This document shows, piece after piece, positions 27,129-63,287 of a DNA stretch of 64,000 nucleotides (its first letter is position 1; the number at the start of each line of letters is the position of its first letter). Position numbers and translations under genes: made by a program. Below the pieces are notes generated by a model. The model saw only the letters and a list, made by a program, of their open reading frames with translations. It was not told the origin of the DNA and ran no database searches. The DNA lies in assembly GCF_026745355.1 (NCBI RefSeq), contig NC_079206.1, positions 44,827,216 to 44,891,215 of the forward strand. Direction: 5' to 3'. The DNA is from Beta vulgaris subsp. vulgaris (lineage: Eukaryota; Streptophyta; Magnoliopsida; Caryophyllales; Amaranthaceae).

Positions 27129-27129
<1 letters not shown>

Positions 27130-28476
27130 GTTGAACCCTATTTTGATGATGACAAAGAAACAAAGATGCAAACTAAGTAGTGAACATGAGTTATTTAATG
27201 TATGATTTTTAAGGTATCAATGAAAGGAACTAGTAGGAGAATACGAAGTCAAGGAAGAAGTCAAGAGAGGATTTCAAGACTAAGTAAAGATGTTCTAGAA
27301 GTTGATACTGGAGCAGCATTGGATCAAGAAGAATAAAAGCAAGGCGTTTTATTTTCTAGTTCCATTGTAAAAGGAACAAAGTAAGGATGGTAAGGAACAT
27401 TGGTAGTCTTATTTGGGAATGAGAGTTTGTTCCTTTCTAAGGAACAAACTAAATGGCACTAAACGAATCTGTTGAAGGAACTTGATATATAAAAGAAACT
27501 AGACTTAGGCGTGAAGTAGTATAACGGTACAATTATGAAGTTAGTAAGTCATGCCTAAATAATAGGAAACCAGTTTTATCTAAGTGAAAATCAGTTTTAA
27601 TAGAAAATCTTTTAAGGAAAAGATTTTGTTTTTCGAAAAAGATAAGAAAATATCTATCCGGTTTTTAAGAAGATTTTATTTAAAAGATAATATTTTCTCA
27701 AAAATTTAAATTCAGTTTTAATATTAAATCTGTTTTAGAGTTAACTGATTTTCGGATAAAGCTCAAGAAACTCCTAATCTTTAGGAGCAGTGGCTAAGCA
27801 TATCCACATCCAAAAAGAGATCATGGGACATGATAAGGACGTGTTCCTTAGGGAAGGAACATCATGGATAAGGATTTAACATGAACTCGATTTTAACTTC
27901 CACGTTCTATGTGTTTGTCACTATAAATATTAAAGTCTAAATAAGTTCCAAAGTGTGTCTGACTAAGTAATTAAGTGAGTTTAACTAATTAAGTGTCAGT
28001 GTCTTCATTCTCTCATTATAGCCATTTGTTCTTTGCTTTCTTACTCTAATTCCACTAAGCGTATTTCGATCAATTGTATTTTGGTTTTTGGGGTAAGGGA
28101 CTTTGGGTGAAGTTCTGTAAGAGAGAAGCTTTGAGTAAAGCTAGTAAGAGTGAGAAAACTTTGAGTGAAGTTGAGAGGAACTACTGTTAAGGGAACAGTG
28201 GCTCAGGAACTTGAGTTTAGGAACTCAAGATGTGGCTCGAGAATAGAAATAGGTTGTAACAAAGTTGTTTGGCCTAATTAGTGAAAGAGTTGAGTTTAAA
28301 ATCCCTAGTGGTCGAGGTTGTTTCTTCTTGTTGGGCCAAGAAGTTTTTCCTCGTAAAAATCCCTTGTGTTCCTCTAGCTTGTTTATTCGTTTAAATTTAA
28401 ATTTCCGCAAAAAGTTACGTTTATTTCTACACATACAATTCACCTCCCCTCTTGTAGTGTTCCTAGGGAAATAATA
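27129..28476 (+). repeat. 5' LTR of Sirevirus-type element
   Basis: 1348 bp, colinear with the 3' LTR apart from the MITE in the latter. The two differ by several substitutions and about ten 1-2 base indels, most of them missing bases in this copy. Confidence 0.92.
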
Positions 28477-28478
28477 AT

Positions 28479-28490: not shown

Positions 28491-29612
28491 TAGAACTCAC
28501 GACAGATAGGAAACCCTATTGAGAAAAAATCCAAGGAACAATGAATACCACAGAGAAACTTAAGGAAGGTTACTCTACTCAAAGGCCTCCTATGTTCAAT
28601 GGGAAGTACTACAACTACTGGAAGAACCGCATTGAGATATTCATCAAAGCTGAAAACTATCGGGTATGGAGAGTCATTAAGTTGGTGATTCGAAGTCACA
28701 ACTACAAATGACAAAATGAGGTAACTCAAACCCCTCTCTGATTATGACAAATCTGATTTTGAAAAGATGGAAGTAAATGCCATGGCTATTAAACTATTGC
28801 ATTGTGGACTTGGACCCCATGAACATAATAGGATCATGGGATGCAAATCCGCAAAGCAAATATGGGATTTAATAGAAGTAACCCATGAAGGAACTAATGA
28901 AGTCAAAAGATCCAAAATTGATTTACTTATGAATCAATATGAACTGTTCTCCCACTACTACATTTTTGTTCAAAGGCAATGGTTTAAAGATAGCTAACGC
29001 AACGGTTCTTTTAATACTGTTGCAATAGATGGGTCTATTGCAACGGCCCATTGCTGACTATATAATTGATTGGGCTACTACAACGACTGAGTTATAGCCG
29101 TTGCATTAGATTGAGAAAATGCACCTGTTAATCTTATGTTGTTGCGTTAAAAGAGCTACTGCAACGGTAAGCGTCCAAATAATTTTGAATTATTAATTTC
29201 CCACTTATGTTAGAAAGTTCTTTAACCGGCGATTATGCAGCAGATAACTATTTTCTCTCTCCTCCAACTTTAAAACCCTTGTTCAATTGCCCGCTTATCA
29301 TCGCCTCTTCAAAACCTGTATAAAAATGGCGGAAAACAGCAACTCACCAACTTAAAGCCCAGAAATTATGGAACCCTGACCAGAATCCAAAAGCTTTAAC
29401 ACCATGAAAACTGATCGAATTGAAAAACCCTAAGAATATTTTCTTGAAAAAAAAAAATCAATCTCCAAAATCAAAAAACTGCTTAAGGTATGCGAATTGT
29501 GATTATATACTAAGAGGAAGAGGATTAAATCAAGAACCACGATGTTTCTTTCAATATTATTCCAATTTTTTTTTTCTAGAATTCATGAATATCTGCAAAA
29601 TTCAAGTTTTCA

Positions 29613-30880
29613 ATGCAGCAAGTAGGTGAAATCATTCAAGAAAACCCAAGTAAAGAGGCGAAATTCGGTTTATTAGTCGCCCTTCAAAAGGTATATTCTT
29701 CAATTTCAATTGTTATGGAACTTTTAGTGCTAGTGACTTCTTCAATTTCCATGCCTTTAACATCTTTGAACCATGGCTTCTCAATATTATAACAAACCAA
29801 TCCTTGAGTCCAAATGGCTTTCATATATATCTAGTCTAATATGAAACGAGAAATAGAATTAAGTACGGCGTACGGCGTGAAATCTGTAAGCTTGAGGATG
29901 AGAATTTTTTTGATTAGATTACACCACTCGACTGCAAAGTTTGATAGTTGCTAAGTATCAATTAAGTTTTATGTGACCGATTCCGAAGTATGAATTCTGA
30001 AACGCTGTGGCAGAAGCAGAGGAAGCAGCTTTAGAGAGTCTAAGTAGGTAATCTTCTAACATAAGCAAGACATGCTTTGGTTATGTATGTGAGAATTAGC
30101 CATTTCTTACGAATTCTTGTTTCTCAGCCATGTTTGAGTTGTTGTTGCAACATTAGGTGGCAAGCATGGTGCTGCTGGACGATTTCGAATAAATGCGAGC
30201 ATCTTTATACAGGCTTTACTCTCTGGTTATCACAATCTAAAGCAACAGGTACTTCCATCTTACTTTTAAGATGCAAGCTAGATAGATTCTCTATGAACTT
30301 TCTGAATTAAAGGTAGCTGATTAAATTGACTTATGGTGTACCTTTTGTATTATTACACTTTGGAAAACAATTAAAATATATCTTATAGTCCGCAGACAAT
30401 CTGATACGACACTCAACATCGTATTAGTTCATAAAACTAATCGAATGTAGGTGATGGTGCTAAATGTTGTTATATTATAAGTATTTATGTTTCGGTATTG
30501 TATAGTCTAATTAACAAGCTTTATAATCTCGTGTTCGATGATGAAACTAGTCATGTAGCGAGTTTAACTTTAGTGAGTTTAAATGGTTGTTTTGGACCCC
30601 GTTATGACTTTGGCCTGGATTTTGATTCTCTCTCCATTGAATAGATAAAGTTAATGTTGGTTTATGACTTTTGTCCTTGAGTGAGTGTGGAGTGCTTGCT
30701 ATGGTCAAGGTTGTGCTAAAACAAAAAGAAAAAAAGTAGTAGTATTTTGCTTATGGCATGAAGAGTGGTAAAGAAAGTCTCAAATAGTACATTATATTGT
30801 TACTGTTGTAGGTAGAACATTTCTGGTTGGAACAACATAAATTCGAACTAGAAGCTTTTGTTGGATCCTTGTATCATGGA
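29613..30880 (+). pseudogene. Exon-like fragments of an unidentified captured gene
   Basis: Four short open stretches bounded by plausible splice sites. 29613-29690: MQQVGEIIQ, ending KFGLLVALQK before GTATAT. About 30004-30047: AVAEAEEAALESLS before GTAATC. About 30150-30248: ATLGGKHGAAGRFRINAS, ending KQQ before GTACTT. From 30812 after TTGTAG: VEHFWLEQHKFELEAFVGS. I do not recognise the family. Whether the fragments come from one gene, and whether they are transcribed from the CACTA element, is inference. Confidence 0.5.
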
Positions 30881-31812
30881 AAGATGTTGGTTTTAGTTCT
30901 AACTACTTTATCACTTACGTGCCTGCTAACATATCGTGATCTAAACACAATCAAATTGACTAAAAATAAACTGTATAGCACAGTTCAAGCATATTTGCAC
31001 ATCGACTGATAGGTGGTAATTATTAAGGAATAATTAGAGAATATCCTTATTCTCTATTATGGTTATGTAAATCTAGGTAGTTAGTTTCAGTCAAATGTAA
31101 TCTATCCTAGTCTATACTGTTATTCTGTAACCTTTTACGTAGAATAGAAATAGCAAGTTGTTATCTTGCTTTGAATACTTAGTCTGCTACTTATCTTATT
31201 CTAGGTTACCTTTGCTTTGAATTACTATCATTGCTATTTTAGATGGCTAAGACTATTAAATACAAGCAGAAATTCATATTGTACACATGATCATGTCGCA
31301 AATAAATGCAGATGATCAATACAGTAATGACATAGAAAGGGATCAGCTAGAAGGTAGTGTGTACATCTAAGAAGATATGCAAAAACATAAAACCAATGAT
31401 GCGTTATCTTCTTAAAAAAAAGTAAAGCTTAACCGAAGGCCAAGAAGCAAAATCCTAACATATCGTGATCTAAACACAATCAAATTGACTAAAAATAAAC
31501 TGTATAGAACAATTCAAGTATATTTGCACATTGACTAATAGGTGGTAATTATTAAGGAATAATTAGAGAATATCTTGATTCTCTATTATGGTTATGTAAA
31601 TCTAGGTAGATAGATTCAGTCAAATGTAACCTATCCTAGTCTATATTGTTATTCTGTATCCTTATACGTAGAATAGAAATAGCAGGTTGTTATCTTGCTT
31701 TGAATACTTAGTCTGCTACTTATCTTATTCTAGAAGCTCCTGTTGAATCCTTGTATCATGGAAAGATGTTGGTTTTAGTTCTAACGACGTTATCACTTGC
31801 ATGCCTGCTTAA
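30860..31812. repeat. Nested direct duplications inside the CACTA element
   Basis: A 280-bp segment at about 30925-31207 recurs at about 31456-31736 (both run from ACATATCGTGATCTAAACAC to CTTATTCTAG). A flanking 80-bp segment (CCTTGTATCATGGAAAGATG) occurs before the first copy and again after the second (31740-31812). The copies differ by about 5 percent by eye. Confidence 0.85.
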
Positions 31813-33817
31813 TTTTATTTCCTATCTTCTGCCCCATTTTTTGGGAGAAGATTGTTGGAGAAAATGAAATAAAAATACATCAAAACTTGTTCATAATATC
31901 GTATTCATTACTTGTTTCCTTAAGCATTAATTATAATTTTGTAGTTTCTAGATGAGATCAAAGTTTGAAGTATTCGACATTAGTATTTTTGTCTTGACTC
32001 TCCACTCGTAGCACGAGATGGTTTTATTCTTCACAAAACAATCTTTGGACTCCCACAAGCAGGCCCGTCTCGAACTATATAGAGGCCCTGTGCGATCTTG
32101 TATTTGAAGAATTCAATAATGTAATAGCTCATCCATACTTCACATAATCATATTATGAAAAAAAGTAGTCCAAATAAGTAGATAAACTTTTTCTTTTTAC
32201 TACTTGAACTTTCTCTATTTTGGGGCCCTCACAATTAAGGGGCCCTGTTCCATGAAACATGTTGAACATGCTAAAACCGCCCCTGCCCACAAGTAGCTGG
32301 TAACAAATATGAATTATTTGGGCCACTAGTTTTAGGCATTTGGAGTGGACCTAAAGCGTAATTTCTGAATTCTAATGTGACCTTGGCTTTACTATGTTGA
32401 CTAATTTCATTAGATGGAGAGGAAAATATACATCCCTAATGTGACCTTGGCTTTAATTGTAATTCCTAACCCTTGAAGAGTATAATAGAAGTATCACTTC
32501 AAATAATAAAAGTAAAAAACACCTTGAAGTTGGGAGCACTAACTGTAATGTGCACAAAGGTGGGGGTCATATCATCAATGCCTAAATATAATGCAGGCAT
32601 ACATCAGTTGCCTCTACAAGCTTGAGAAAACTATGGCCTCTAGGAGTGACTTATACAATTTGGTGGTTGCCCTGCATGTAAGCTTACTATAAATATCCAT
32701 TTAAAACAAGTTCACAAGCCTTCTTTTTTGTCCTTGATAGCTTCTATTACAGATAAGAAGAAGATATAGCAACAAAGCAAAGGAAACGAGAAACTAAAGG
32801 AAACCGAGTGTGGGATCTCTTATTCTTTCCCAATTTGATCGAAACCAAGGGATGCATCTAGAGATCAACATCCTACTAGTGACTCAAATGGGAAAGCTTC
32901 TGATGGGCTGCAATTGTCAGATAGTGAGGTACTATTACAAATATATCTTAGGTCCTATTTCTCCATGAACATATTTATTGTAAGCTATGGAATATGCGAC
33001 CATCATGCCTTTTCCTGAATTTTTTCTAGTTGTCACATGGATTATAGTGGCTTTTTTTATTAGTCTATTGATTACTTTATCTAAGTACTTGCTGTGCACC
33101 AAGCCACCAACCATAATTTGCCTTGCTGCAACTGTCGCATAGATGCATGCACCATCCGTACTCCTTCCAGGCTAGACTAGTGGAATAGATGCACCTTGAA
33201 GCCTCAGTTACTCGCTTACATCATCAGGAAGTGTAATAATAGGCTATCAGTATGATGTTTGTCGGAATATATAAAGAACCTGCAAAAGAATTTTCATTTC
33301 AGGTTAAGATGTTTCAAATAAAAAAACAAGTTGATATAACAAATTGGCACCACTTATCTTCTATCCCCCCCCCCCCAAAAAAAAAAACACTCCATGACTC
33401 CATTTTCGATTTTAATTGTTAAATTTAGTGTTTTCTAACTATTTACGGTGTTTGAATTATTAGGTGAACAATGAGGCAATGGAGGAGATCAAACATGGAT
33501 GTCTCACCATATATACGCTATTGGTGGCCGGATCTAGCTAGCTATATATAGTAATATGGTGCTTGTAAGTAGTATTTAGAAGAAAATTAGGGTTGTATAT
33601 GTTAGAAATGTCCCCTAAAAAAAATGTTAGAAATGTTTTGTAGTATATTAAACAATTATTTAGCTTGGTTTCATTTAATACATTTTGTTTATATTAGTAA
33701 GAATTTAGTCAATTTAGTCATGATTGTAGTACTCTTATAAATTCATTAGTTCGAAAATTTTCAATAAAAATATGACAATTATTTTGAGCTTCTGGAGCGA
33801 CTTTTTAGTCTTTTGTC

Positions 33818-33821
<4 letters not shown>
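31813..33821. other. Right interior of the CACTA element, no gene recognised
   Basis: AT-rich with no clear ORF. Short exon-like bits occur near 32760-32930 and 33465-33520 but cannot be assigned. A C9A10 homopolymer run lies near 33366. Confidence 0.4.

Positions 33822-33874
<53 letters not shown>
33822..33874. repeat. (TA)n microsatellite
   Basis: Two TA tracts separated by one AA step, next to the right subterminal repeats of the CACTA element. Confidence 0.95.
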
Positions 33875-35264
33875 TACAGGCGGTATAATAGCTTGGAGTA
33901 ATAGGCGTTGCAATAGCTTTTGCTAGTGGGTGTTGCAATAGCGTAATCGTTGCATAATCTACATGAAATCAATAGCTCACACAACCGTTACATAAAAGAT
34001 TGGTCTATAGCAACAATTCATTAAGCCGTTGCAATAGGTCCCAAAAGTCGTTGCACTAGGCCTATTGCAACGCCACCAAATGCGACGGTTCAAAACCGTT
34101 GCAATAGGTCTACTGCAACGACTTTTGAGCCTATTGCAACGGTTTTCATGTGTTGCCTTTGCCATTTAATGTAGTAGTGTCCATAAAATCTAAGGAAAGC
34201 ATTCGAGATATGTTTACTCGTTTTACTAACATAATTAATGAGTTAGCTTCTCTTGTAAAGTTTATTTCATCTGAGGAACAGGTTCGAAAGGTTCTTAGGA
34301 GTCTTCCTAAGGACAGATGGATGGCTAAAGTCACTGCTCTTCAAGAACAAAAGACTTCACTAAGTTCAACTTAGAACAGCTGGCAGGGTCACTTATGACT
34401 CATGAGCTTCACCTTGATACTGCATATGGTGAAAGCTCCAAATCAAAATCATTGCTCTCAAAGCAGATGATGAAGATGATCAGACTCAGAAGAAGAAGAA
34501 GCAGCCCTCATGGTTCGAAAATTTCGAAAGATGTTAGGAACATGAAGAATGGAACTTCAAAGGTAAAACTAAGAAATTTTCTAACAAAGCTGCTTGTCAT
34601 AAATGTGGTAGTACAGATCACTTCATCAAGGAATGTCCCCTTTGGGAAAATGACAAAACCAAAGAAAGGAACAAGGAACGCTTTGCTGAAAGGAACAAAG
34701 AATCAAAGCACCTTTCTCTAAGGCAAATGTGCAAAGCATGATAGCTGCTTGGGGAGATTCAGAGACGGAAGAAGAAGAGGAACAACAACTGAAGAAACAG
34801 CAAACCTTTGCCTCATGGCAAACATGAGAAAAAGAAGATGAAGAAAAGTTGAGGTAAGTCAACATGGTCTTGAGTCAGACTTAGATTGTAAAACTAGGCC
34901 TGAAATATATGATCTTCTTTATGATGCAATTCTTGAATGTAGAGATGAACGTGAAAAACGTAAACAAACGAACAAGCCTAAAGCTGCAAAGAACACATAG
35001 AATGGCTTAAGAAAATGAGAACAGATGTTGAAACAAGATTCTTTGATTATTTGATAAAAACTTAAAAATCAAAGAATGTTATGAAAGTTTGAAAAATGAA
35101 AATTATCTAATTAATTTAGAGATTTCACACTTGAAGGAGTTTGTCCCTGTTCTAGTTCCTTTGATATAAGATCAACCCCTTTGAAAGGTACAGATCTGAG
35201 ATTGAAAATTTAAAAAGAGAAAAATTTTTAAAGGAACAGATCTGTAATCTTAAAAAGGAACTGG

Positions 35265-36950
35265 TTGTCGCAAGGAACAGAGGCAAAACATGGTTTCCTA
35301 AGTGGATTGAGAAACCACAGACCAAAAGGAAAGGAAGGTCTTGGTTTTGAAATACAAGAAAAGGAACAAGACAAAAAATATGTTGATCTACCTAGTGAAA
35401 TTTTGTATGTATTGTGGAAGGTAGGTCATTACATAAATCAATGTCAACTAAAACTGAAATGATTGCAGAAAATGTGAAATAAGTAAAAAAATGGGTTGTC
35501 AAACAAATCCTAGTCAAGAACAGGAACCCACGAAAGAGGGGTTTCTACAACTAACATAGTTGATTTTTCAGGTTGGAGTGAGGGGGAACAACACATGGTA
35601 TCTCGATAGTGGTTGTTCCAAGCACATGACAGGAGACAAAACTAAGTTTCTCTCACTCACAACCTATGAAGGTGGAGTGTAACATTTGGTGATAATAAGA
35701 AAGGTAACATAGTTGCCATGGGAAGGTCGGTAAGTCACCACTACACTCCATTGAAAATGTATTTTTAGTTGAAGGTCTAAAACATAATCTATTAAGATAT
35801 TCTCAATTCTGTGACAAGGAAATACTGTAAAATTTGATAAAGAAAAATGCTTGATCATCAACATTAAAACTAAGAAGGTTATCTTGGAAGGAACAAGGAA
35901 AGGGAACACATACATTGTGGATCTAACCTTGTTCCTCAAATCAATTTAACTTGTCTTAGTGTTATTGAAGATGATTCACTTCTTGGCACAAGCGTCTAGG
36001 ACATGCTAGCTTTTCATTACTTGAGAAACTTAGATCAAAAGATCTTGTTTTAGGATTACCATCCATAAAATTTCATATTGATCAAGTTTGTGATGCATGT
36101 GCACGAGGTAAGCAAGTAAGATCCTCTTTCAAATCTAAAACGATAGTAAGTACCACTAAACCATTAGAATTAATTCATATGGACTTATGTGGACCTATGA
36201 GAATTCAAAGTAGAAGTGGAAAGAGGTATGTACTTAGTTTGTAGATGACTACTCTAGGTATACTTGGGTTATTTTTCTCACTAGTAAAGATGAGACTTAT
36301 GATGAGTTCCTTGTCTTTGCTAAAAGAGTTCAACACTTGAGTGGTCATAAAATAATGCACATTAGATCAGTCATCGAAAGAATTTGAGAATTATAAATTT
36401 GATGACTTAAGCAGAGATAATGGCCTAGATCATAATTTTTCTGCCCCTAGAACACCACAACAAAATGGTGTTGTAGAAAGGAAAAATAGAACTTTGGAGG
36501 AAATGTCTAGAACATGTTAATTGCTAGTGACTTCCAAGGAACTTTTGGGCTGAAGCTGTTAATACTGCTTGTCACATAATTAATCGTGCCATGATGAGAC
36601 CTATCATTAAAAGAACTCCTTATGAACTATATTTTGGAAAGAAACCCAACATCACTTATTTTAGAACATTTGGTTGCAAGTGTTTTGTGCATAATAATGG
36701 AAGATAATCTTGGGAAATTTGATGCAAGGAGTGATGAAGCAATATTTTTAGGATACTCATCACATAGTAAAGCTTATAGAGTATATAACAAGAGAACTAT
36801 GTGTGTTGAAGAAAGTATTCATATAATCTTTGATGAATCTGACAAGTACAATCCAAGCATACAGGTTGATGACTATGAGATTAGGTTGGTACAACCAAAT
36901 GAGAAAAATGCAGATTCAAATGAAGAAGAAGATGTAAAAGAGGAAAGGAA
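35265..36950 (+). pseudogene. Sirevirus-type protease and integrase, frameshifted
   Basis: The protease active site W-Y-L-D-S-G-C-S-K-H-M is encoded near 35598. A GAG-pre-integrase motif L-G-H-A-S and the C-D-A-C-A-R-G-K-Q zinc-binding segment lie around 35998-36120. Integrase core motifs are LIHMDLCGPM (about 36170), the second Asp region near 36415, and PQQNGVVERKNRT with its catalytic Glu (about 36456). The post-core motif EAIFLGYSSHSKAYRVYN is at about 36738. Frames shift near 35690, 35990, 36240, 36390 and 36520, and the reading is then cut by the next CACTA element. Confidence 0.82.
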
Positions 36951-37740
36951 CGAACTAGTAGAAAAAATCTCAAAAGCTCCGGTTAAAAACCCCTCAAATG
37001 CTCCGTATTTGTCCCGTAGCAGACGTCATACGAGCATTTGAGCATTTCACAAATGCTCCGGTTGTGTTAAAAACCGGAGCATTTGAGCTTTTTTACATGA
37101 GTAAAATACCACAAATGCTTCGGTTGTTTCGGAAAACCGGAGCATTTGTTGAACAAATGCTCCGGTTGTTTCAGAAAACCGGAGCATTTGTTGAACAAAT
37201 GCTCCGGTTTTCTGAAACAACCGGAGCATTTGTGTATTTTATATAGTAAAAAAAAACTTTCAGCTACTGCTAGCATGCGTGCAGCTAGAGTATGACACTA
37301 GTGCAGCAAACCAGCAGTACACAACAAGTTCATTTCAGGAGCAACACTCACCAATCTAACATACACTCTTTGTGCCCTTCCCTTCAACCACCACACACCT
37401 CGTGTTCCTCTCATTTACTTAATGTAAAAAAAACGCACATGCAAATCATACAACCAACACATTCAAATTATTATCATTAAAATGAAATAAGTGTACATTA
37501 TTTACAAAACAAGTGTAAATTCGAGTTACAATATATAATCAACCTGCTAAAACTTTTGGCTACGTTGTCCTTGTCATTAATTTCATGTGCCTTCAATTTC
37601 AAGGATATCAATAAGCATTGCTAACTTTTTTTTTACAACAGTAAAAACAGTGCTTTAAAAATGATTAGCTATAAATTATTGAGCGCGGTATCTGAACCAT
37701 AGTACCAAAAAGCATAATCCAAAAGCACAACACATATATG

Positions 37741-37990
37741 CTAATATATTGAGTCAAATACCACAATGTCACATAAGGTAAAATCTAAGATATTCTGTAC
37801 ATAAAGAAGATTTTCGACAGAAGCAGTTCCAATGGTATCAACTTTGCACACCTGATTTTCTACCACATGTAAGCAGTCATTTGTTGCTGAACTACCCTTC
37901 AGAGCGGGTTCTTGATTTTCTGCCACAAGTAAGCAGTCATTTGTTGCTCAGGTTCTTGTTTTTCTGCCACAGGTAAGCAGCAACATCAAA
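37741..37990 (-). pseudogene. Unidentified fragment with a triplicated motif
   Basis: A minus-strand open stretch repeats NDCL-x-V-x-ENQ. The DNA unit GTAAGCAGTCATTTGTTGCT occurs twice, with a partial third copy, at 37868-37985. Function unknown; it lies inside the CACTA element. Confidence 0.35.
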
Positions 37991-39311
37991 CATTAGTAAT
38001 GGTATTGGGGGCCATCGAAACAGACAAGAAGAGAAATTTTTGAAACATACCAGAACTATTAGGGAAAAAACAGAACTACAAGTCTACTTTTCCTCATAGA
38101 GCCATTATTGTGTCTCCATATTAAGAGTAAATAGTTTGGAAGTGTAGCCTCAATTTAAGTAGATAGTGTAAAAATAAAACAAATCAATTATGAAAGAGAG
38201 TTAGTAGGGGGACAACATACATTCATATGGAATATGAATAGAGGGAATAAAAATAGTTAGTGGAATGGTCCACATCACATTAATTCAACGGGTGATCTGG
38301 GAAGTATTTGCAACTAAAAATTTATATGTAGATCGACCAATATAGCAAGTATCTAGGACGATTATTTGTGGAACAAATCTTATGGCCATTTGGAAGGTGG
38401 TAATAAATGGTAGTAATAATAATGATTTTTCATGTTATATTGTAAACAAAGTCTCATGTAAATGCTTATGGTAATGGATCTCATTATCACTCAATGACAC
38501 CTCTAAAATGGTAACGGATGATAATGATAAGTTATTTAGGAAGGGATGTATATGTGAATGGATAAGCATTACCATTGGGTTCACAAATTTACCTATTGAT
38601 TTATACCCTGATTAATGAGAGAAGTAAAGAAGTAAGAAGAGGATAGGGAAAAGAAATGAGAACAAAAAAATCATAAGATTAAGGGAGGAGATAAGAGAGA
38701 GAACAGGAAATCGAAGGAGCCTGTTTAATTAATCATGAGATGATTACTATGATGCACATAGTTTAGCTTACATACTCACTATCACTACATTACTATATAA
38801 TATAACTAACATCTATGATATAGCATTAATTCACTAACTGCAACCCCAACTTCACACACGTTTGATTTAACTCCTTTGCAAGACACAATACACTTTTGAT
38901 CCTAAAAGAAAATGAAACACTATCTCCACATCTGATAAGCAACACAATAATTAGTTTCGTAATAACTATCATTTAGGACAGCCTGCCAAACATGCAAACA
39001 AATAATAAAATGAATATTATAACTTTTTTGAGTATTATCTTGATTGTCACTCGTGCTTCACTCTAACTTGAAGTGTGCAACTCAGGTTGCAGGTGTGAGC
39101 CAACAAGTCACTATAAACTCGAGCTTGACTCAGCTGAAACAACTGTCTAACATAGACAATTAGGCATATCTTTCCTAATCCCCACTTTTCCTCATAGAGC
39201 CATTATTGTGTCTCCATATAAACATAATGAACCTCATTCAGATGAACACATGACAACAATGGTGAAATTATTAAAAGCTCATAAGATCAGCAAAATAACC
39301 TTCATATTATT

Positions 39312-39850
39312 TGCAATTGATGGGCTGAATGAAGGAACATGGAAACGGTGATCGACAATCTTCGTATGCTCCTCTCAAACTGGCATAATTGCTTCATTGA
39401 CTTTTGGAACTTGTACATGCCAGTAATCAGATAGCATCTTCTGCCTCCTCAATGCTTCTGGCATATTCTCCAGTGGATTCAAAGGCATGCAGTCAATATC
39501 CTGCCCAAGTATAAAGGAGATGATAACTATTTACTCCATGTATATCAACCATAGTCCTCCATTTGACATGATAATAGTTACCTCATGATGTAACACATAA
39601 CTGTGCTGAAAATATCCTCAGTTAATCTTTCACATCTAAAGGTCTCTAGGAATTAGCAGTTAAGGGAAAAGCTAAGCAAACACAAAGAAAAATGCTCAAG
39701 AGCAGGAAGAATATGATCTCACCTGTACCCTAATTTGACTGTATATCCGCTGATCAATAATGATTGAATCAATACTAATGTTATTTAATCTACTAATAAT
39801 AAACGGTGTGTACGTTGGCAGATCATAGGGATCCAAATCCTCCAGCTGAT
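39312..39850 (-). pseudogene. Unidentified captured exons
   Basis: Two minus-strand open blocks with plausible splice borders. 39735-39850 encodes LEDLDPYDLPTYTPFIIS and IIIDQRIYSQIRVQ before GTGAG. 39312-39502 encodes DIDCMPLNPLENMPEALRR and QKMLSDYWHVQVPKVNEAI, then a stop. They look like real exons but I do not recognise the protein. Confidence 0.45.
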
Positions 39851-40439
39851 CCTATATTGAAATGAAAAAATTAGGAACCATATAAGAATGATATAAATTA
39901 TTGTATTTGTGAAAAACCACCCATTACTTCATTTTTATTAAAATACACTAACAGATGACATATCGACTACAATTCAAGCATGATAAGTAACTGATAGCAT
40001 ACAATATATTCGCAGTGCTACACATCACACAAGACACTCTGGGCTTCCACAAAAGACATTTAATTGAATGAACTTCATGACTCTGTTTTAAGGAGACCTG
40101 GTGATGGTAAATAAAACATATTAAAAAAAATTAAATATAAAAGCAAAAACGAAGGTGCACAAAAATGTAAAACGGTGTTGATATACATTCACCATGTGAT
40201 ATATAAATAGTAAAAATATTGGTGTGTTCTTTCACTCACTTGCTTGCAGGGTTCAAGCAAGCAAATTGCAAGATAAGAGATTCTAAACTGAATCTTCATG
40301 CATGACTGATACTTCCAGGTGAGTGAGAAATTCGTAAAACACGAGTAGGACCATCAACATATACTTCATACCCCCACGTTTGCTACATCAATACCATTTA
40401 TCTGAGCAAGATTCGTGCCCCTTCTATTAGAGGCTCTGG

Positions 40440-41260
40440 TATCTACTGGTAAATGAGAAGGCAGAGCTCTCTATTTTCCCACCCGAAAAAAGGACTTCCA
40501 TGGGCGCAGTTTATCTAAGCTGATTTCACGTAGCGTTTGAACACCTAAAGCAGGCAAGAGATGTCATTATCTATCTAAATTTTCAAAGACATAACTTCTT
40601 TTTACCCCCAAGAAGAAGCAGCCCCATTAAACAAATCTGATTTGCAAGGAATGCTTTTCACATGCATGCATATTAGGCTTATAGGCTGTAGCAAACAGCA
40701 AGTAATCTTTTTTTTTTTTTTTTTTTTTTGAAGTGAGTAAGTGATAGCAACAAATATTCTTTTTCAACAATATGTGCATCCCAAATTTCAACAACACACA
40801 ATAACGGTAGAATTACCATTAATTTTGACAATGAGCTTGTGCGGTCGAGTCAAGTTATCCCAGACATAGTTCACACTGCCTCTGCTTGCAAGAGTTTCTG
40901 GCTGAAATGAATCCTGGAAACTTACAACAATCAGATTGGAACACAATAGTGGTAACGCCACAACGGTTTTATACAAGTTGACGGTATCTGGGAGAAAACC
41001 TTTTGATAATAAGTAATAGAAGCATCACGAAGATGATTTTCAATTCGATAAGGCAGACAAGTATCTGGTGGTCTACAGAAATGCAAGACAAGGCGGGACC
41101 TTCCTCAACCACATGAACAGCTGCAAATTCCCAAGTAATATCATCTTCCCTTGTTACAAGATCTAACTGATATACATATTTTCATTAATGTCTCCTCGTC
41201 AAGGTTCAGAGGCCTCGAACATTAAACAAGCTGCTGGAAGGGTCAAAGAAAACATCCAGA
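40440..41260 (-). pseudogene. VPS13-like (SHR-binding region) gene fragment
   Basis: Minus-strand exons resembling the C-terminal half of plant VPS13-type lipid-transfer proteins. 41001-41200 encodes REDDITWEFAAVHVVEEG and PYRIENHLRDASITYYQK, then a GT donor. 40793-40913 (after CAG) encodes SVNYVWDNLTRPHKLIVKI. About 40490-40550 encodes LREISLDKLRPWKSFFRV. VPS13 proteins act at membrane contact sites. Frameshifts and a stop show this is a fragment. The family call is from motif resemblance and is moderately sure. Confidence 0.6.
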
Positions 41261-41267
41261 TGGCCTC

Positions 41268-41745
41268 TTTCTGATTATCCCTACTGAGCAGACCATTTAA
41301 AACCTGCACAATATATGAATAGATTGATTCAAGACTTCCGTGCACCCGTTTGAATCAAGTAAACCTTCTGATTTCTTCTTTACAGCTCACAAAACATGTG
41401 TTATATTGAACATAGAAATCATGAGTTCATGACTTCATGGACCTTAACCAAATATTTCCTTCATATAATTATGAATCTAGGCCACAAGAAAAATGATAGT
41501 CAGAACATACCACATAGTGAAAGATTATTGAAGGCATACCTCATTCACAATGCCATCACCTCCAACACATACAATCCCTACAACACAAAACAAGGGGGAA
41601 AAGGAGAGAATGATTAAAGAGATATAGTGGGGAAAAAAAAGTAAGCAAATTGTCCCAATATTAACAAGTACCATCAGGACGTGCTAAAGTCAACAGTAGA
41701 GGCAAGTTTCTTAGCATGTCCAGCACAAGTTGTTTTGACAACTTC
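41268..41745 (-). pseudogene. Sphingoid long-chain-base kinase-like gene fragment
   Basis: Minus-strand exons from the diacylglycerol/sphingosine-kinase catalytic domain. About 41665-41745 encodes FKLEVVKTTCAGHAKKLAST. About 41537-41580 encodes the nucleotide-binding GIVCVGGDGIVNE before a GTATGC donor. About 41265-41305 encodes VLNGLLSRDNQKEA after CAG. The order and spacing match the plant LCBK1-type kinase. Reading then passes into VPS13-like sequence at about 41250. A frameshift near 41670 disables it. The host gene must lie elsewhere. Confidence 0.65.
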
Positions 41746-41759
41746 CAGCTTAAAACCTG

Positions 41760-43100
41760 CAAGCTGAAATAATGACAGCCATGAGCTGATCAAGTACTAT
41801 TTAGCTACTACTCCGTTTAACTCCAATTTATTAAAAGGTGAAGCGCCTAAAGATACTTGAATCAATAAGAGCTCAAAGTTAGAACTAAAACATTATTAAT
41901 TAATTAAATGGTCCCATTGAACTTAAAATCCCTTTCTTGGGCTTTGTTCTAAATTTGAAAGCTTGCAACAGAATCATACATCACCAAACTGATACAACCG
42001 AAAACATTAGGAAAACAGCAATTTAAAATAAAGTTCAACGCTATTCAAGAAATTCAAAATGGCTATTATTCAATTTAAGAGGCCCTATTGAGCTTCCACA
42101 GCAAACAAATCAACCTAAAACAAAATGATAATAACTCAGCCGCTGTCGGCTGTCATACACTTTCACGTCCTATTTATAGTAGCCGAGTCGAATTGGTTTG
42201 CTTATTACCCACCTAAATGTTATGTTAAAAATCTATCTTTACCAGTTAACATTTTCGAACCAGTAATGATGTCAATGCCAAATTTCTTGAAAGTTTATAC
42301 TAATCCCCTACCTTCCACAATTCAATAAACTGTATCATATCTTATTCTCAACCACGAAAACACAAACAGTCGAAAATTACAATTAAAAAAATGCAACAAA
42401 ATCCGGTAATGAAAACCTAAGAACCTAAATCCAAATTAGCTAAATATTGCGAATCGAAACTGGATTATCATGCACATACAGTTGAGACAGCTTCTTCTGA
42501 ATTCTCAGTTCCTTCCATCACTCGAATACCCTCTTATAATCAGTTGCAAATCAAGTAAAATTCTAGAAATGTTGCAATTTGCAAGTAATCTGACGAAATT
42601 CAAAACTAAAGGAAATTAAAATTTGTAATTTAAAAGTAGAAGGACGTGAAATTAGTGCGAATGCGAGACATGTATCAGTTACACAAACACTAAATATTCT
42701 AATTTTTCTCATGCTTACAATATTTACAGCAAGATTAGGGCAAAAAATATATGTATAAGTGGTTGCAGAAAAAACCTGGAAATTTGATGAGAACGTCGCC
42801 GGCGTTCGAGGAGGAGCAACGGCTACTCGAGGGCGGCAACAATGGTCGATGACGCGAAGATATAGAGCTATAAAAGAGATCCAATGCGGTGGCCTAAGAA
42901 AATGATCGCACCACCGCCATGGGTAAATTTTGAAAGAGCTACTGGGAGGAGTGGAGGATCGATGAATCAAACAAAACCTTAAAGAATAAAAGAAAACCCT
43001 AAAATAATCCCTAAATCCAGAAAACCAAAAAAAACCTAAAATACAACAATAAAACTAAAATACAGTAATAAAAATCGGAAGAAATAAATTACCTCGACAT
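41760..43100. other. Right interior of the CACTA element, promoter/5'UTR-like
   Basis: No confident coding exon. Contains AAACCCTAA (42994-43002) and, further right, GA-rich DNA. On the minus strand this resembles a plant 5'UTR and promoter upstream of the captured kinase exons. Confidence 0.4.
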
Positions 43101-43413
43101 GCATTCGGAGAAGCAGATCGAGAGTGAGTGAAGAGGGGAAGAGAGAGAAAGAGAAGCAGATCGATAGTTGAGGAAAAGAGAGAGAGAACAGAGATTACAG
43201 GGGAAATAGTTTTAGAGTTTGCGTTTCAACTTCTAAAGTATTAAATTCCTTTTCCAAAAAAAGTATTAAATTAGTCAAATACTCGGGTTGTTTTTAAAAA
43301 CCCGAGCATTTGTGAATTTTTCTTTTTAATTTTCCAAAAACTTGTCAAATGCTCGGGTTGTTAAAACAACCCAAGCATTTGTAAAGTAGCAAAAGAGGTT
43401 TTTTCCACTATTG

Positions 43414-43894
43414 GAGATAATCACATCGATGATGTTCCTGTTCCTCAAGGAGGAGAAGATGTTCATGTTCCTCAAGATGAAGGAACAGAGTCTACCGAGG
43501 CTAATAGAGGAACAACTGATCATAGTTCTTCATCTACTCAAGGAACTCATGAGGAACAACTGATCATAGTTCTTCATCTACTCAAGGAACTCATGAGGAA
43601 CAACATGTTCCTATAAGAGAGTCTCAACCAAAACCTTGGAGACAACAAAAGTCACATCCAATGGAACTCATAATCAGCGACATATCCAATGGTACGCAAA
43701 CTAGATCTCAGTTAAGGAACTTTTGTGCATTTCATGCATTCCTATCAATGATGGAACCAAGAAATCATGAAGAAGCCCTAACTAACTCTGATTGGATCAC
43801 TGCTATGCAAGCTAAATTAAATGAGATCGAAAGAAACAAGGTATGGCATCTAGTTCCCTCATCTAAACAATAAAAAGTAATTGGCTTAAAGTGG
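43414..43894 (+). pseudogene. Sirevirus-type pol linker before the polymerase
   Basis: Resumes Copia pol after the CACTA element. It is an acidic, Gln/Pro/Ser-rich linker followed by the conserved EPRNHEEALTNSDWITAMQ motif (about 43756-43810), which begins the RT domain. A 44-bp tandem duplication (about 43502-43600) shifts the frame, and a TAA stops it at 43871, just before the long open RT frame. Confidence 0.75.
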
Positions 43895-45280
43895 GTGTTT
43901 AGAAACAAACTAGATGAATATGGAACCATTGTTAGGAACAAAGCTAGACTTGTAGTAAAAGGTTATAATCAACAAGAAGGAATAGACTATGAAGAAACCT
44001 TTGCTCCTGTAGCTAGATTAGAAGCCATTAGAATTTTAATTGCATTTGCTGCTTACATGGGTTTTCAATTATATCAAATGGATGTTAAGTGTGCATTTTT
44101 AAATGGCTATCTAAATGAAGATGTATATGTTGAACAACCCCCAGGCTTTGAAAACAGTAATCTCCCAAACCATATCTACAAGCTTGATAAAGCTCTTTAT
44201 AGGTTAAAACAAGCGCCTATATCTTGGTATGAAAGATTATCTAAGTTCTTTTTAGAAAACAATTTTAAAAGAGGAAAGGTTGATAAAACCTTGTTCCTAA
44301 AATCGAAAGGAACTGACATTTTACTTGTTCAAATATATGTTGATGACATCATATTCGGAGCAACAAATGAAACATTGTGCAAAGAATTCTCAAATCTCAT
44401 GAGTAATGAATTTGAAATGAGTATGATGGATGAGTTAAATTTCTTTCTTGGATTACAAATCAAACAAACTGAAAAGGGAATAATTGTTCACCAAAAAAAA
44501 TACATAAAGGAACTATTGAAGAAATATGGCCTCGAAAACTCAAAGATAAATCACACTCCTATGGGAACTTCAACTAGATTAGATGAAGACTCTATAGGAA
44601 CAAGTGTTGATCAAACAAAATATAGAGGCATGATTGATTCACTTTTGTATCTAACTACTAGTCGTCCAGACATAGCTTTCAGTGTTGGTTTGTGTGCTAG
44701 ATTTCAAGCAAATCCAAAAGAGTCTCATCTAACTGCCGTGAAGAGAATTCTTAGATATCTTAAAGGAACAGATGATCTTGGACTCTACTATCCAAGAAGT
44801 GATACATTTGAGCTAAGAGGATATACAGATGTAGATTATGCTGGAGATCTTGTAAATAGGAAAAGCACCTCAGGTATGGTACAATTCCTTAGTCATAGTT
44901 TAGTTTCTTGGAGTACCAAGAAACAAAACACAGTTGCTTTATCCACTGCTGAAGCAGAATATGTAGCAGCAGCTGCATGTTGCTCGCAAATGCTTTGGAT
45001 AAAACAACAACTTAGTGACTATGGAATAAACTTTGATTGTGTTCCTATTTATTATGATAATACTAGTGCTATCAGTATATCTAAAGATCCAGTGCATCAT
45101 TCCAGAGTTAAACATATACATATCAGACATCACTTTCTAAAAGAAAATGTTGAAAAAGGTTTGATTCAACTTGAGTTTTGTCAAACTGAGAATCAGATTG
45201 CTGATATACTAACTAAGCCTTTGCAAAGAGATAGCTATGAAAAATTAAGGCTTGAGTTAGGATTAATAAAAATTAAGTGA
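43895..45280 (+). CDS. Sirevirus-type reverse transcriptase and RNase H (part of pol)
   Basis: The longest uninterrupted frame in the window (461 codons), carrying RT and RNase H that make and trim element cDNA. RT motifs: [20 protein letters not shown] (residues about 18-37), [11 protein letters not shown] (61-71), LYRLKQAP (100-107), catalytic Y-V-D-D-I (about 149-153), [11 protein letters not shown] (about 255-265). RNase H: catalytic D in the [10 protein letters not shown] motif (about 309-318), AEAEYVAA (about 352-359), [11 protein letters not shown] (about 410-420), [10 protein letters not shown] (about 437-446). The annotated start is only the first ATG after an upstream stop; it is really an internal part of pol. 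The domain looks intact, although the rest of the element is broken. Confidence 0.93.
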
Positions 45281-48230: not shown

Positions 48231-49993
48231 TGTTGAACCCTAGTTTTGATGATGACAAAGAAACAAAGATGCAAACTAAGTAGTGAACTAATGAGTTATT
48301 TAAGTGTATGATTTTTAAGGTATCAATGAAAGGAACTAGTAGGAGAATACGAAGTCAAGGAAGAAGTCAAGAGAGGATTTCAAAGACTAAGTAAAGATGT
48401 TTCTAGAAGTTGATACTGGAGCAGCATTGGATCAAGAAGAATAAAAGCAAGGCGTTTTATTTTCTAGTTCCATTGTATAAAGGAACAAAGTAAGGATGGT
48501 AAGGAACATTGGTAGTCTTATTTGGAATGAGAGTTTGTTCCTTTCTAAGGAACAAACTAAATGGCACTAAACGAATCTGTTGAAGGAACTTGATATATAA
48601 AAGAAACTAGACTTAGGCGTGAAGTAGTATAACGGTACAATTATGAAGTTGAGTAAGTCATGCCTAAATAATAGGAAACCAGTTTTATCTAAGTGAAAAT
48701 CAGTTTTAATAGAAAATCTTTTAAGGAAAAGATTTTGTTTTTCGAAAAAGATAAGAAAATATCTATCCGGTTTTTAAGAAGATTTTATTTAAAAGATAAT
48801 ATTTTCTCAAAAATTTAAATTCAGTTTTAATATTAAATCTGTTTTAGAGTTAACTGATTTTCGGATAAAGCTCAAGAAACTCCTAATCTTTAGGAGCAGT
48901 GGCTAAAGCATATCCACGTCCAAAAAGAGATCATGGGACATGATAAGTAACGTGTTCCTTCAGGGAAGGAACATCATGGGACAATGGATTTAACATGAAC
49001 TCGATTTTAACTCCCACGTTCAATGTGTTTGTCACTATAAATATTAAAGTCTAAATAAGTTCCAAAGTGTGTCTGATTAAGTAATTAAGTGAGTTTAACT
49101 AATTAAGTGTCAGTGCCTTCATTCTCTCATTATAGCCATTTGTTCTTTGCTTTCTTACTCTAATTCCACTAAGGTTGTGTTTGGGAACATGGATTTCATT
49201 TCAATTCTAGAATTGTAAATCCCCACATTCAAATCCAAATGATTTGTTTGGGAAAAATTAGGAATTTGAAATGCATAATTTGAACTTGTTTCTAATGGTA
49301 TTGTTAATGATGGGAGAGAGTCTTTCAAAAAAAAAATGATGGGAGAGAGAAGAAGGGGGGAGTGATGAGAGAGGAGATAGAAATAAACTAACACTTATTT
49401 TGAATTTGAAATGACATGTGTTTTGGTTGGATTTCAAATTCTCCAATTATGCCTTACTTCTTATGAGTCTTGGATTTGGGCCAAATACAATTCCAAATTC
49501 TTAGATGATCCAAACAAGTGATTTGGCCCAATTCCAGAATTTCAAATGAAACTCTAGAATCCAAACAGGCCATAAGCGTATTTCGATCAATTGTATTTTG
49601 GTTTTTGGGGTAAGGGACTTTGAGTGAAGTTCTGTAAGAGAGAAGCTTTGAGTAAAACTAGTAAGAGTGAGAAAACTTCGAGTGAAGTTGAGAGGAACTA
49701 CTGTTAAGGGAACAGTGGCTCAGGAACTTGAGTTTAGGAACTCAAGGTGTGGCTCGAGAATAAAATTAGGTTGTAACAAAGTTGTTTGGCCTAATTAGTG
49801 AAAGAATTGAGTTTAAAATCCCTAGTGGTCGAGGTTGTTTCTTCTTGTTGGGCCCAAGAAGTTTTTCCTCGTAAAAATCCCTTGTGTTCCTCTAGCTTGT
49901 TTATGCGTTTAAGTTTAAATTTCCGCAAAAAGTTACATTTATTTCTACACATACAATTCACTCCCCTCTTGTAGTGTTCCTAGGGAAATAACA
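48231..49993 (+). repeat. 3' LTR of Sirevirus-type element
   Basis: 1763 bp. Equivalent to the 1348-bp 5' LTR plus a 400-bp Tourist MITE with its 3-bp duplication and small indels. Confidence 0.93.
49173..49572. mobile_element. Tourist-type (PIF/Harbinger) MITE in the 3' LTR
   Basis: 400 bp with ends GGTTGTGTTTGGGAAC and the complement of TGGCCTGTTTGGATTC. The 3-bp target TAA is duplicated (49170-49172 and 49573-49575). The 5' LTR at about 28056-28062 shows the unoccupied site. Confidence 0.9.
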
Positions 49994-51030
49994 ATATATA
50001 TATGGGAAGGGTAAAAAAAAATGGCAGCAATTAAAGGGATTTATCCGCAAAGAAATTCCAATAGGAGCAACCATTTTTCAGCAACCAAATATTGTTCTTC
50101 ACATATGTCGCCGTCATATGAAGGTCATTGTGACAGATCCCGATTTTTGAATACATGTAAAGCAATTTCACAATTCATCGTCACGATTTTTAAATTCGAA
50201 ACCAATTTTTAGATAAGTATTCAAGTCGTCATTTTTGTAACTATATGTTTAGGTGTAATTACTTGCTACTTTTTTTAATTATGATTTTAGATAATTCTGT
50301 GACTTCTTTAAAAAAATTGATGCACAGATTTAATTTCTAGACTCATCAATTTAGGTTTACGTTAGTTTTTTTTAGCCATGCAAACAAATTATATGTATGG
50401 TCTTTTTTACACATTAATTATATAATGCTTTTACAATAACAAACTGTCGTTAATGTATAGTATTTGATGGTAAAATAAAAATAAACATAAAGAAACTCAA
50501 AAAAAACTTTATTCCTAACATTAGCATACTATTACAGATCATACTACTTATCTCCTATTGTGCATGCGATTGAGCATATGTTATACTTCATCTTCTATTG
50601 TTGGCGTTGATGCTTCATTTCTCTTTCATATGCCTTTTTTAATGTTATGTCTACGCTGTTAAATTTTTTAATGTTGATGGGATTGATTTATAGTCGGGAA
50701 GAAGATGACTTTTGGGAATTTTGAACCTCTTTGTGGACAAATATATAGGAGGTGGCTGAAGGAATTTATGCTAGGATATGTTCATATTTGGCATACTAGA
50801 GTTATTTCCTAAATATGTATTTGACTGATATATGACTCACATGATTAATGACATTATTATTTACAGGATTGCTTGATATACGGTATTTCGCACAACATTG
50901 GCAACAATGATGAAGTGAATTTTTATTTCGAGAATCATATAATTTTAGTTTACATAATGAACTCTATAAGGATTAAGGCACGAAAATCACGACAATGAAA
51001 ACAACAAGCAATAGCGTGAGATTGTATTTT
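49994..51030. other. AT-rich spacer
   Basis: No gene or complete element recognised. Short ORFs such as 50021-50212 have no recognisable domain. Confidence 0.45.
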
Positions 51031-61757: not shown

Positions 61758-63287
61758 CACTAGTAGAATAAATGCTTATTTCTGCGGTTAAAAAGTGGCC
61801 TATTGTTGCGGTTTCAAGAGCGCAACAATTAAGGGGGCAGCAGTAGGCCGGTAATAATTACATTGCTGCGGGTTAAAACCGCAGCAATATCTGAAGAAAT
61901 TGCTGCGGTTTTTGGGTAAAACCGCAGCAATATTTGTATTTTATATCAGAATAATAAAGGATATTGCTGCGGTTCCTAAGGAAAACCGCAGCAATATGTT
62001 GTATTTAAAAATGAAAAATACGCATATCGTTGCTGTTGTTACCTAAAACCGCAGCAATATTACTGGTACAGCAAAAAAAAAATGTATTTTACTATCAAAT
62101 TTGAGATATTAAAACTTGACAATTAATCCATCCACTATCCAAAATGACATCATATAATCAACAGTCGAAAAATTACAGTTTCTAGAAAATATTATTCAAA
62201 AATGTAAATGAATCGATAACTTATCATCAAAAAAATAACTAAAAGATGAAAAGAAAGAATATGAAATTATATGAAATAACCAAAAATTTCTAAATCTGGT
62301 GAAATTACCAGAAAATTAAACAAAACAGATATAAAAGAGAAATTAAAAAAAAATTACACAAAAAAAAAACAGATCTGGCAAAAATAAAATTACATGAAAC
62401 AAAATTCAGATCTAAAAAACAAAAAAAAAAACAAAAAAAGAGATAACAGTTCTTAAAATACATAATTCCAAATCGCAAGTAATAAGCCGGCAACTACCGT
62501 TTCACTCTTCTCTTCCTCACGCGTCGTCGGCCGGCAACCATCGTTTCACCCATCTCTTCCTCGCGCGTCGTCGTCGGCCGGCAACCATCGTTTCACTCCT
62601 CTCTTCCTCGCTCGTCGTCGGCCGAAAACTATCCGTTACTCCTCTTCCTCGCGCGTCGTAGGCCGCGTTGTTCTTCTCTGCCATATTGCTGCATCGTCAG
62701 ATCGAACGGTGGGAATTGCTGCGTCGTCAGATTGAACGATCGTTGTCGAACAAGCGACATCGACATGCGTGGTTCGATGGTTGAGAGTAGATGACGGGAA
62801 GAGAGGAGAGAGAGTGAGATGAGGAAGTGAGGAGTGCGGCGTGCAAAGGAAGAGGGGAGGAGAGAGAGTGAGATGAGGAAGAGAGGAGTGAGGCGTGCAA
62901 AGTAAGAGAGGAGGAGATAGAGGCGTGAGGTGTGCAAATGAAATGGAGTGAGGCGTGAAACCCTAAATAACCCTTTTCGTATTAATTTTAGAAGTATATT
63001 GCTGCGGTTTTTAGTAGGAACCGCAGCAATATGTTTAAATAATTTTTTTTAATATTATTTTAATATATTGTTGCGGTTCTTGTCAGAAACCGCAGCAATA
63101 TGTTTGGTCAAATGGTCAAAAAAATTTTAAAATATTTCTGTTGAAACCATATTGCTGCGGTTTCGGCCCGAATCTGCAGCAATATGGTTATTTTATATTT
63201 TTCCTTTTCTTTTTACGTGATATATTGCTGCGTATGGGTAAAACTGCAGCAACATCAGTGCAGCAATAAACAATTATTCTACTAGTG
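61758..63287. mobile_element. Non-autonomous CACTA element, family A copy 2
   Basis: Begins CACTAGTAGAATAAATGC, ends TTCTACTAGTG. The flanking trinucleotides CGT and CAT differ by one transition, a decayed duplication. Same subterminal motif (TATTGCTGCGGTTTT) and layout as 27-1494, including CAGATCT repeats, GA-rich block (62790-62930) and AAACCCTAA (62958-62966). Hairpin pairs are less perfect than in copy 1, so it is probably older. Confidence 0.9.

Follow-up and report, generated by a model that had tools for sequence, protein, structure and literature searches.

Setting and structure of the element

The window, that is, the whole 64,000-nucleotide stretch of Beta vulgaris DNA analysed here, contains a Ty1/copia retrotransposon whose plus-strand LTRs lie at 27129-28478 and 48231-49995 and align in blocks of 97.8% and 96.7% identity, the right LTR having about 400 bp extra at 49174-49569. 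Within it, on the minus strand at 36953-43413, lies a Pack-CACTA-type element of 6461 bp with degenerate ends, and the prediction that a gene-bearing transposon would be nested in a retrotransposon is borne out by LTRs and copia domains on both its sides. The copia domains between the LTRs are located at 28725-28994, 35975-36241, 36598-37038 and 43874-45277, with gag, gag-pre-integrase and SH3 preceding the element and RVT_2 (E 2.3e-71) following it. The LTR pair differs by 20 substitutions at 1355 aligned sites, which would make the nested insertion younger than this divergence of 1.5%.

The element is a mosaic. The left arm of the family (36953-37616, inner border approximate), with subterminal AACCGGAGCATTTG palindromes, is followed by a minus-strand fragment of an ALWAYS EARLY/LIN9-type (ALY) gene with a DIRP domain, which includes exon DIDCMPLNPLENMPEALRR (37617-39593, left border approximate), by minus-strand VPS13 exons and introns from the VAB domain (block A, 39589-41176), by a minus-strand LCBK1-type kinase fragment with its introns (41260-41798) and by block D, 580 bp with no named gene (41796-42375), which is 91% identical to C11:23913621-23914165 (C numbers denote contigs of the same genome). 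The family right arm (42379-43413, minus strand) completes the element and bears exons 1 and 2 of an annotated gene; it is repeated in the genome, at least 78 matches to the query 41746-43413, itself included, being found when 40 of the 338 initial candidates were scored. The ALY fragment is interrupted by a 354-bp insert (38608-38961), which is missing from the three related places compared and has a 92% copy at C1:45964087. It may itself be a small transposon, although its borders as given here show no clear TSD.

The predicted CACTA identity holds for the family, but not for the termini of this copy. Relatives at C1:328065-335157 (TSD TCC) and C5:27670424-27674791 (TSD TCA) have exact CACTAGT ends, and both ends of the window element are homologous to those of these relatives, the C1 copy being 94% identical at the right end (157 bp) and 90% identical across a 1.68-kb alignment that starts from the left end. 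The element's own ends read AACTA and CAATA, with one C-to-A difference each. Target-site duplications of CACTA elements are 3 bp long, and none was found at the flanks, which read ACG and GAG. Because its ends depart from a strict terminal CACTA and lack such a duplication, this copy is classed, on homology, as a degenerate derivative of a Pack-CACTA-type family. Helitrons are marked by a 5' TC, a 3' hairpin-CTRR, insertion between A and T, and the lack of a TIR; homology to TIR-bearing relatives would speak against such an identity. For rice and maize, the available text of one source gives a 5-nt target-site duplication (PMC8903248). No transposase domain was detected at E 0.05 in 57 ORFs of the element (54 of the 103 of at least 32 aa, plus three shorter ones), which gave weak Pfam matches to DUF5967, Noc2 and ROH1-like families (E 0.005-0.05).

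Other features lie in the same window. A second CACTA element (28953-34179), with CACTACTACATT ends and a perfect TSD, TCC, lies inside this copia element, in its gag region. At 1-1494 and 61874-63287 there are two 3' ends from a different family, which have TTGCTGCGGTTTT palindromes and terminate in ...CTACTAGTG; they probably belong to further CACTA elements cut by or contained in the window. Near the nested transposons, malate synthase exons on the minus strand at 13975-16128 (MS_TIM-barrel, E 2.9e-57; MS_C, E 6.4e-45) represent an ordinary host gene.

Captured fragments, their sources and the join

On translation, all of the kinase and VPS13 peptides named in the original prediction were recovered on the minus strand at the positions assigned to them. 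The three kinase exons (minus strand, 41756-41260), which we take to be of the LCBK1 type of plant sphingoid-base kinase, match Pfam DAGK_cat (E 8.7e-13, typed spliced query of 56 aa) and the solved structure of sphingosine kinase 1 (E 0.00024, PDB search), and 16 of 17 protein candidates were matched at E 0.001 or better when these exons and the join were used as the query. The best DAGK_cat match is limited to positions 31-79 of the 125-position profile (typed query), and the domain is thus incomplete. The parent in the same genome is C3:2550325-2550861, to which the fragment is 95.0% identical; at that locus the kinase exons are intact and extend beyond the point at which the window departs from them. 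Compared with the parent gene, exon 3 has a 2-nt deletion. A Zingiber officinale protein named as a 26S proteasome subunit 4 homolog also contains an LCBK stretch, DAGK_cat being matched at 57-112; this protein may be an LCBK chimera of separate origin, or else the product of a faulty gene model.

The VPS13 exons run from 41176 downward on the minus strand. Nine of 24 protein candidates were matched by the VPS13 query, the best, at E 3.9e-42, being named VPS13, and five of the nine carry VPS13_VAB (PF25036), although the typed piece by itself gave no match in Pfam or PDB. Block A is 93.4% identical to C9:16662649-16664290, which lies within a long minus-strand VPS13 gene. In the window translation its VAB-region reading frame contains in-frame stops and frame breaks, and both the LCBK and the VPS13 frames of the window are broken where those of database relatives stay open. 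The window copy and the C9 gene differ at 39 of 1384 ungapped sites, and for this reason the VPS13 capture looks older than the insertion into the copia element. Two assignments near the border with the neighbouring fragment were rejected: exon DQLEDLDPYDLP (39850-39724) was discarded as a part of the ALY fragment, as it falls inside the VPS13 block, and 38962-39588 was discarded as a part of the VPS13 block, as it has no match to C9 and is matched instead by the ALY loci.

The third fragment, presumably from an ALWAYS EARLY gene, matches C10:39740852-39741811 and C5:52865283-52866423, and an ORF adjoining the C5 match encodes a DIRP domain (E 1e-24). The two loci are alike beyond the captured stretch and either may be the donor; no CACTAGT end occurs in the retrieved pieces of either, and the fragment gave no useful PDB match. 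Host coding DNA in the element thus has sources elsewhere, at C3, C9 and C5 or C10, and on these matches no fewer than three unrelated host genes are considered to have contributed fragments to the element. The original prediction of two unrelated genes joined in one transposon is confirmed, both parents having been located in the same genome on separate contigs. An origin of the kinase and VPS13 segments in one contiguous gene was rejected, the parents lying on C3 and C9 with no contiguous parent found, and each segment matches its own family. The prediction did not include the ALY gene, block D, the sibling elements or the copied patches at the join.

The kinase-VPS13 junction, predicted at about 41250, is placed at 41260, from where two short patches reach down to 41178. 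Patch C (41209-41260, minus strand) is an exact 52-bp copy of C9:16661442-16661493 (52/52), and patch B (41178-41210, minus strand) an exact 33-bp copy of C9:16662173-16662205 (33/33). In plus order, block A is followed by one extra T, patch B, patch C and then, from 41260, LCBK. Block A and both patches share one orientation, and the order of their donors is reversed with respect to the VPS13 gene, the donor of the 33-bp patch lying 2.1 kb, and that of the 52-bp patch, an exon still further 3', 2.8 kb, from the joining end of block A. Pfam gave no support for the VPS13 identity of the patches, which was later confirmed at the C9 locus; since in the parent they translate as QPIDLNLDEETLMKIVPFW (patch B) and SSSLDVFFDPSSSLFNVRGLTLG (patch C), each corresponds to coding exon sequence of that one VPS13 gene. 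A search of the same genome (569 Mb) with the predicted chimeric interval returned the interval itself once and six other places, namely LCBK at C3 (95%) and C5 (93%), VPS13 at C9 (94%) and C1 (97%) and the two short exact C9 matches; a single copy of the full chimera was detected. The overlaps at the six joins, judged by eye, were 2, 0 (with one inserted base), 2, 1, 3 and about 0, and random joins between the same donors reached this total in 12% of 20,000 trials (P 0.12). As this microhomology is no longer than chance, it gives no evidence, and it is the patches that bear on how the join was made.

The annotated gene BVRB_5g110650

The locus is annotated as a multi-isoform beet gene, BVRB_5g110650; its isoforms A, B and C, which are among the 16 proteins matched by the query of kinase exons and join, can be read from the window DNA without a mismatch. 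On the minus strand, the coding sequence of isoforms B and C starts at 43100 (exon 1, 43093-43100) and continues through exon 2 (42977-42776), exon 3 (down to 41672, beginning at 41756 in isoform B and at 41763 in isoform C), exon 4 with the GGDG motif (41577-41540) and exon 5 from 41303 downward; the start of isoform A is at 41717. The LCBK-VPS13 join is crossed by isoforms A and B, whose exon 5 (41303-41199 as far as the stop) passes from LCBK through patch C to a stop at 41201-41199 in patch B, while isoform C stops within exon 3 (41676-41674). In the unedited annotated proteins DAGK_cat was matched by isoform A (E 6.2e-07) and isoform B (E 2.4e-06), while isoform C (E 0.16) failed the curated cut-off. 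The splice signals were rightly predicted to have been kept, all four introns of the annotated isoforms being GT-AG.

Exons 1 and 2 lie in the family right arm, and their signals were compared in seven high-scoring relatives among 20 loci, with these present: the start ATG in 5/7, the exon-1 donor GT in 7/7, and the exon-2 acceptor AG and donor GT in 5/7 each. The annotation of the locus as a gene with several isoforms makes transcription of the chimera plausible. A working kinase or VPS13 product would not be expected. According to the accessible part of its report, a gene entered BeetSet-2 if it had expression evidence of 1-100% or, where it had none, if it had a one-to-one ortholog in spinach (PMC4556409). 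A literature search by the gene name found no mention of BVRB_5g110650.

Origin of the chimera

We consider it very probable that the locus is a non-autonomous beet element of Pack-CACTA type that gained its fragments stepwise, with one join probably made by template switching. An ancestral element would have carried the ALY fragment joined to VPS13, a join retained in the C1 relative next to another right half, and in the window copy the VPS13 side would additionally have been joined to the LCBK1 fragment. This second join was probably produced by break repair in which the polymerase switched templates and inserted, between the large blocks, stretches of 52 and 33 bp copied from exons elsewhere in that VPS13 gene, their order being reversed. 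The fragments, with their introns and splice sites, would then stand in sense behind the right arm, the source of exons 1 and 2, and the locus would be likely to yield a chimeric RNA subject to alternative splicing, its frames short and ending just past the join or earlier. The effect, if any, would be mainly at the RNA level.

The specific reading of the LCBK-VPS13 join as a fossil of serial template switching, in which one repair event visited three VPS13 sites in reversed order and ended in LCBK, is moderately favoured. Patches that are exact and in reversed order point to template switching over the excision of contiguous DNA; multi-fragment end joining could also be a source of reversed patches.

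The relatives bear on the order of these steps. The C1 relative has 36954-38607, 38962-40986 and 43096-43413 in common with the window, including the ALY-VPS13 join, and has no LCBK match, while the C5 relative contains a 1.4-kb LCBK fragment, 88.6% identical to the gene, and has no VPS13 match; in both, the cargo is oriented to the right arm as in the window element. The C1 relative's right half (C1:331702-334834), where 8 of 32 ORFs were scanned, gave sub-threshold matches of cystatin/SQAPI-like (E 0.03-0.1), PAP_fibrillin-like (E 0.017) and glycosyltransferase-like type, and the ORFs of the first two types are perhaps further captured genes.

The LCBK piece might have been obtained from the C5 sibling by inter-element exchange rather than from the gene, a possibility to which we give tentative weight. 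The C5 fragment spans that of the window, and 14 differences (13 gene-only substitutions and one shared indel) unite the two against the LCBK gene, in a three-way comparison that also gave 8 window-only and 19 C5-only substitutions. However, the window fragment is nearer to the gene (95.0%) than to the C5 copy (93.5%), and only one of the 14 shared differences is exonic (P 0.04), as expected if they had arisen in a functional gene. This last observation tips the comparison slightly in favour of the LCBK gene having been captured twice, independently.

A role of the element as a source of siRNA against LCBK1, VPS13 and ALY appears doubtful. The sense fragments are about 93-96% like their likely parents, and block A shows a mutational bias: C-to-T or G-to-A changes account for 12 of the 16 substitutions found in the window copy alone and 16 of the 25 found in the C1 copy alone, compared with 4 of the 21 that separate the parent from both copies (which also have gaps in common), for which the direction is undefined. 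Such an excess is expected of methylated copies. Captured genes in maize are described, in the available part of one report, as siRNA reservoirs (PMC13317346). Against this role, the captured pieces form no inverted repeat (repeat search, at least 60 bp, seed 14), only the subterminal palindromes at 37086-37258 being found.

It is unlikely that a hybrid element arose by aberrant excision of neighbouring CACTA copies, contiguous DNA being taken in with no template switching. Catoni et al. (2019) reportedly put forward such excision as their model for Pack-CACTAs. The published model is given as aberrant excision of neighbouring elements in the text available of a further source (PMC13317346). 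The relatives have parts in common with the window copy, and excision could still account for the ALY and VPS13 gains, but the parents of the LCBK and VPS13 pieces are on separate contigs, and excision of contiguous DNA would not be expected to leave two short, exact patches whose order is the reverse of that in the gene. That the chimera is a functional new gene for a short kinase-derived protein is highly improbable, since, despite three annotated isoforms and a match of 25-26 residues around GGDG to DAGK_cat in two of them, only part of the 125-position domain is present, the 2-nt deletion shifts the frame and a stop follows just past the join.

A non-autonomous element with a template-switched join, as preferred here, has several counterparts. 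Soybean Tgm-Express1 is a CACTA element with five host-gene fragments and, like the beet element, contains unrelated fragments as exons and introns; it is alternatively spliced into chimeric RNAs with short frames, and so is the beet element by annotation (PMC1947982, as far as its available text goes). Tgm-Express1 is read from the F3H promoter, internal starts being thought unlikely by its authors in the same text, whereas the beet models start in the element's own right arm; for the beet element, a join with copied patches is also described. Pack-CACTAs with several source loci are known and, among Pack-TYPE elements generally, the available text describes non-autonomous elements with gene pieces from multiple loci and related copies with different cargo, as in beet (PMC8903248); the beet copy differs in its degenerate ends, the lack of a clean TSD and the templated patches at the join. 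The gap-filling (FoSTeST) model of Pack-TIRs in animals invokes template switching to fillers with short microhomology, which resembles the beet case, where the overlaps are at chance level; in the part of the study at hand, the question of plant Pack-MULEs is called 'worth exploring', and the beet case is a plant CACTA (PMC8277862). In Chenopodium, which belongs to the same plant family, CACTA capture also occurs, but in the excerpt available each element carries pieces of a single gene, which lie upstream of a transposase-associated domain (PMC8978399), in contrast to the multi-gene beet mosaic, in whose 57 ORFs no transposase domain was found. In the literature searched, Pack-CACTAs and template switching occur together in the review that gives the excision model (PMC13317346) and in the animal study (PMC8277862). 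Within that scope, the multi-gene CACTA chimera is of a known kind and what is new is the join marked by patches.

In beet, the gene annotated as BVRB_5g110650 is shown to be cargo of a transposon rather than a gene for a kinase. How plant transposons gain gene pieces is an open question, and a single genome here offers the parents, an intermediate-like relative, a probable parallel LCBK capture and a patched join, so that models of capture may be tested on a real event. If serial template switching is indeed responsible, the cargo of plant Pack-CACTAs could be written by replication-type copying, beyond the excision of trapped DNA.
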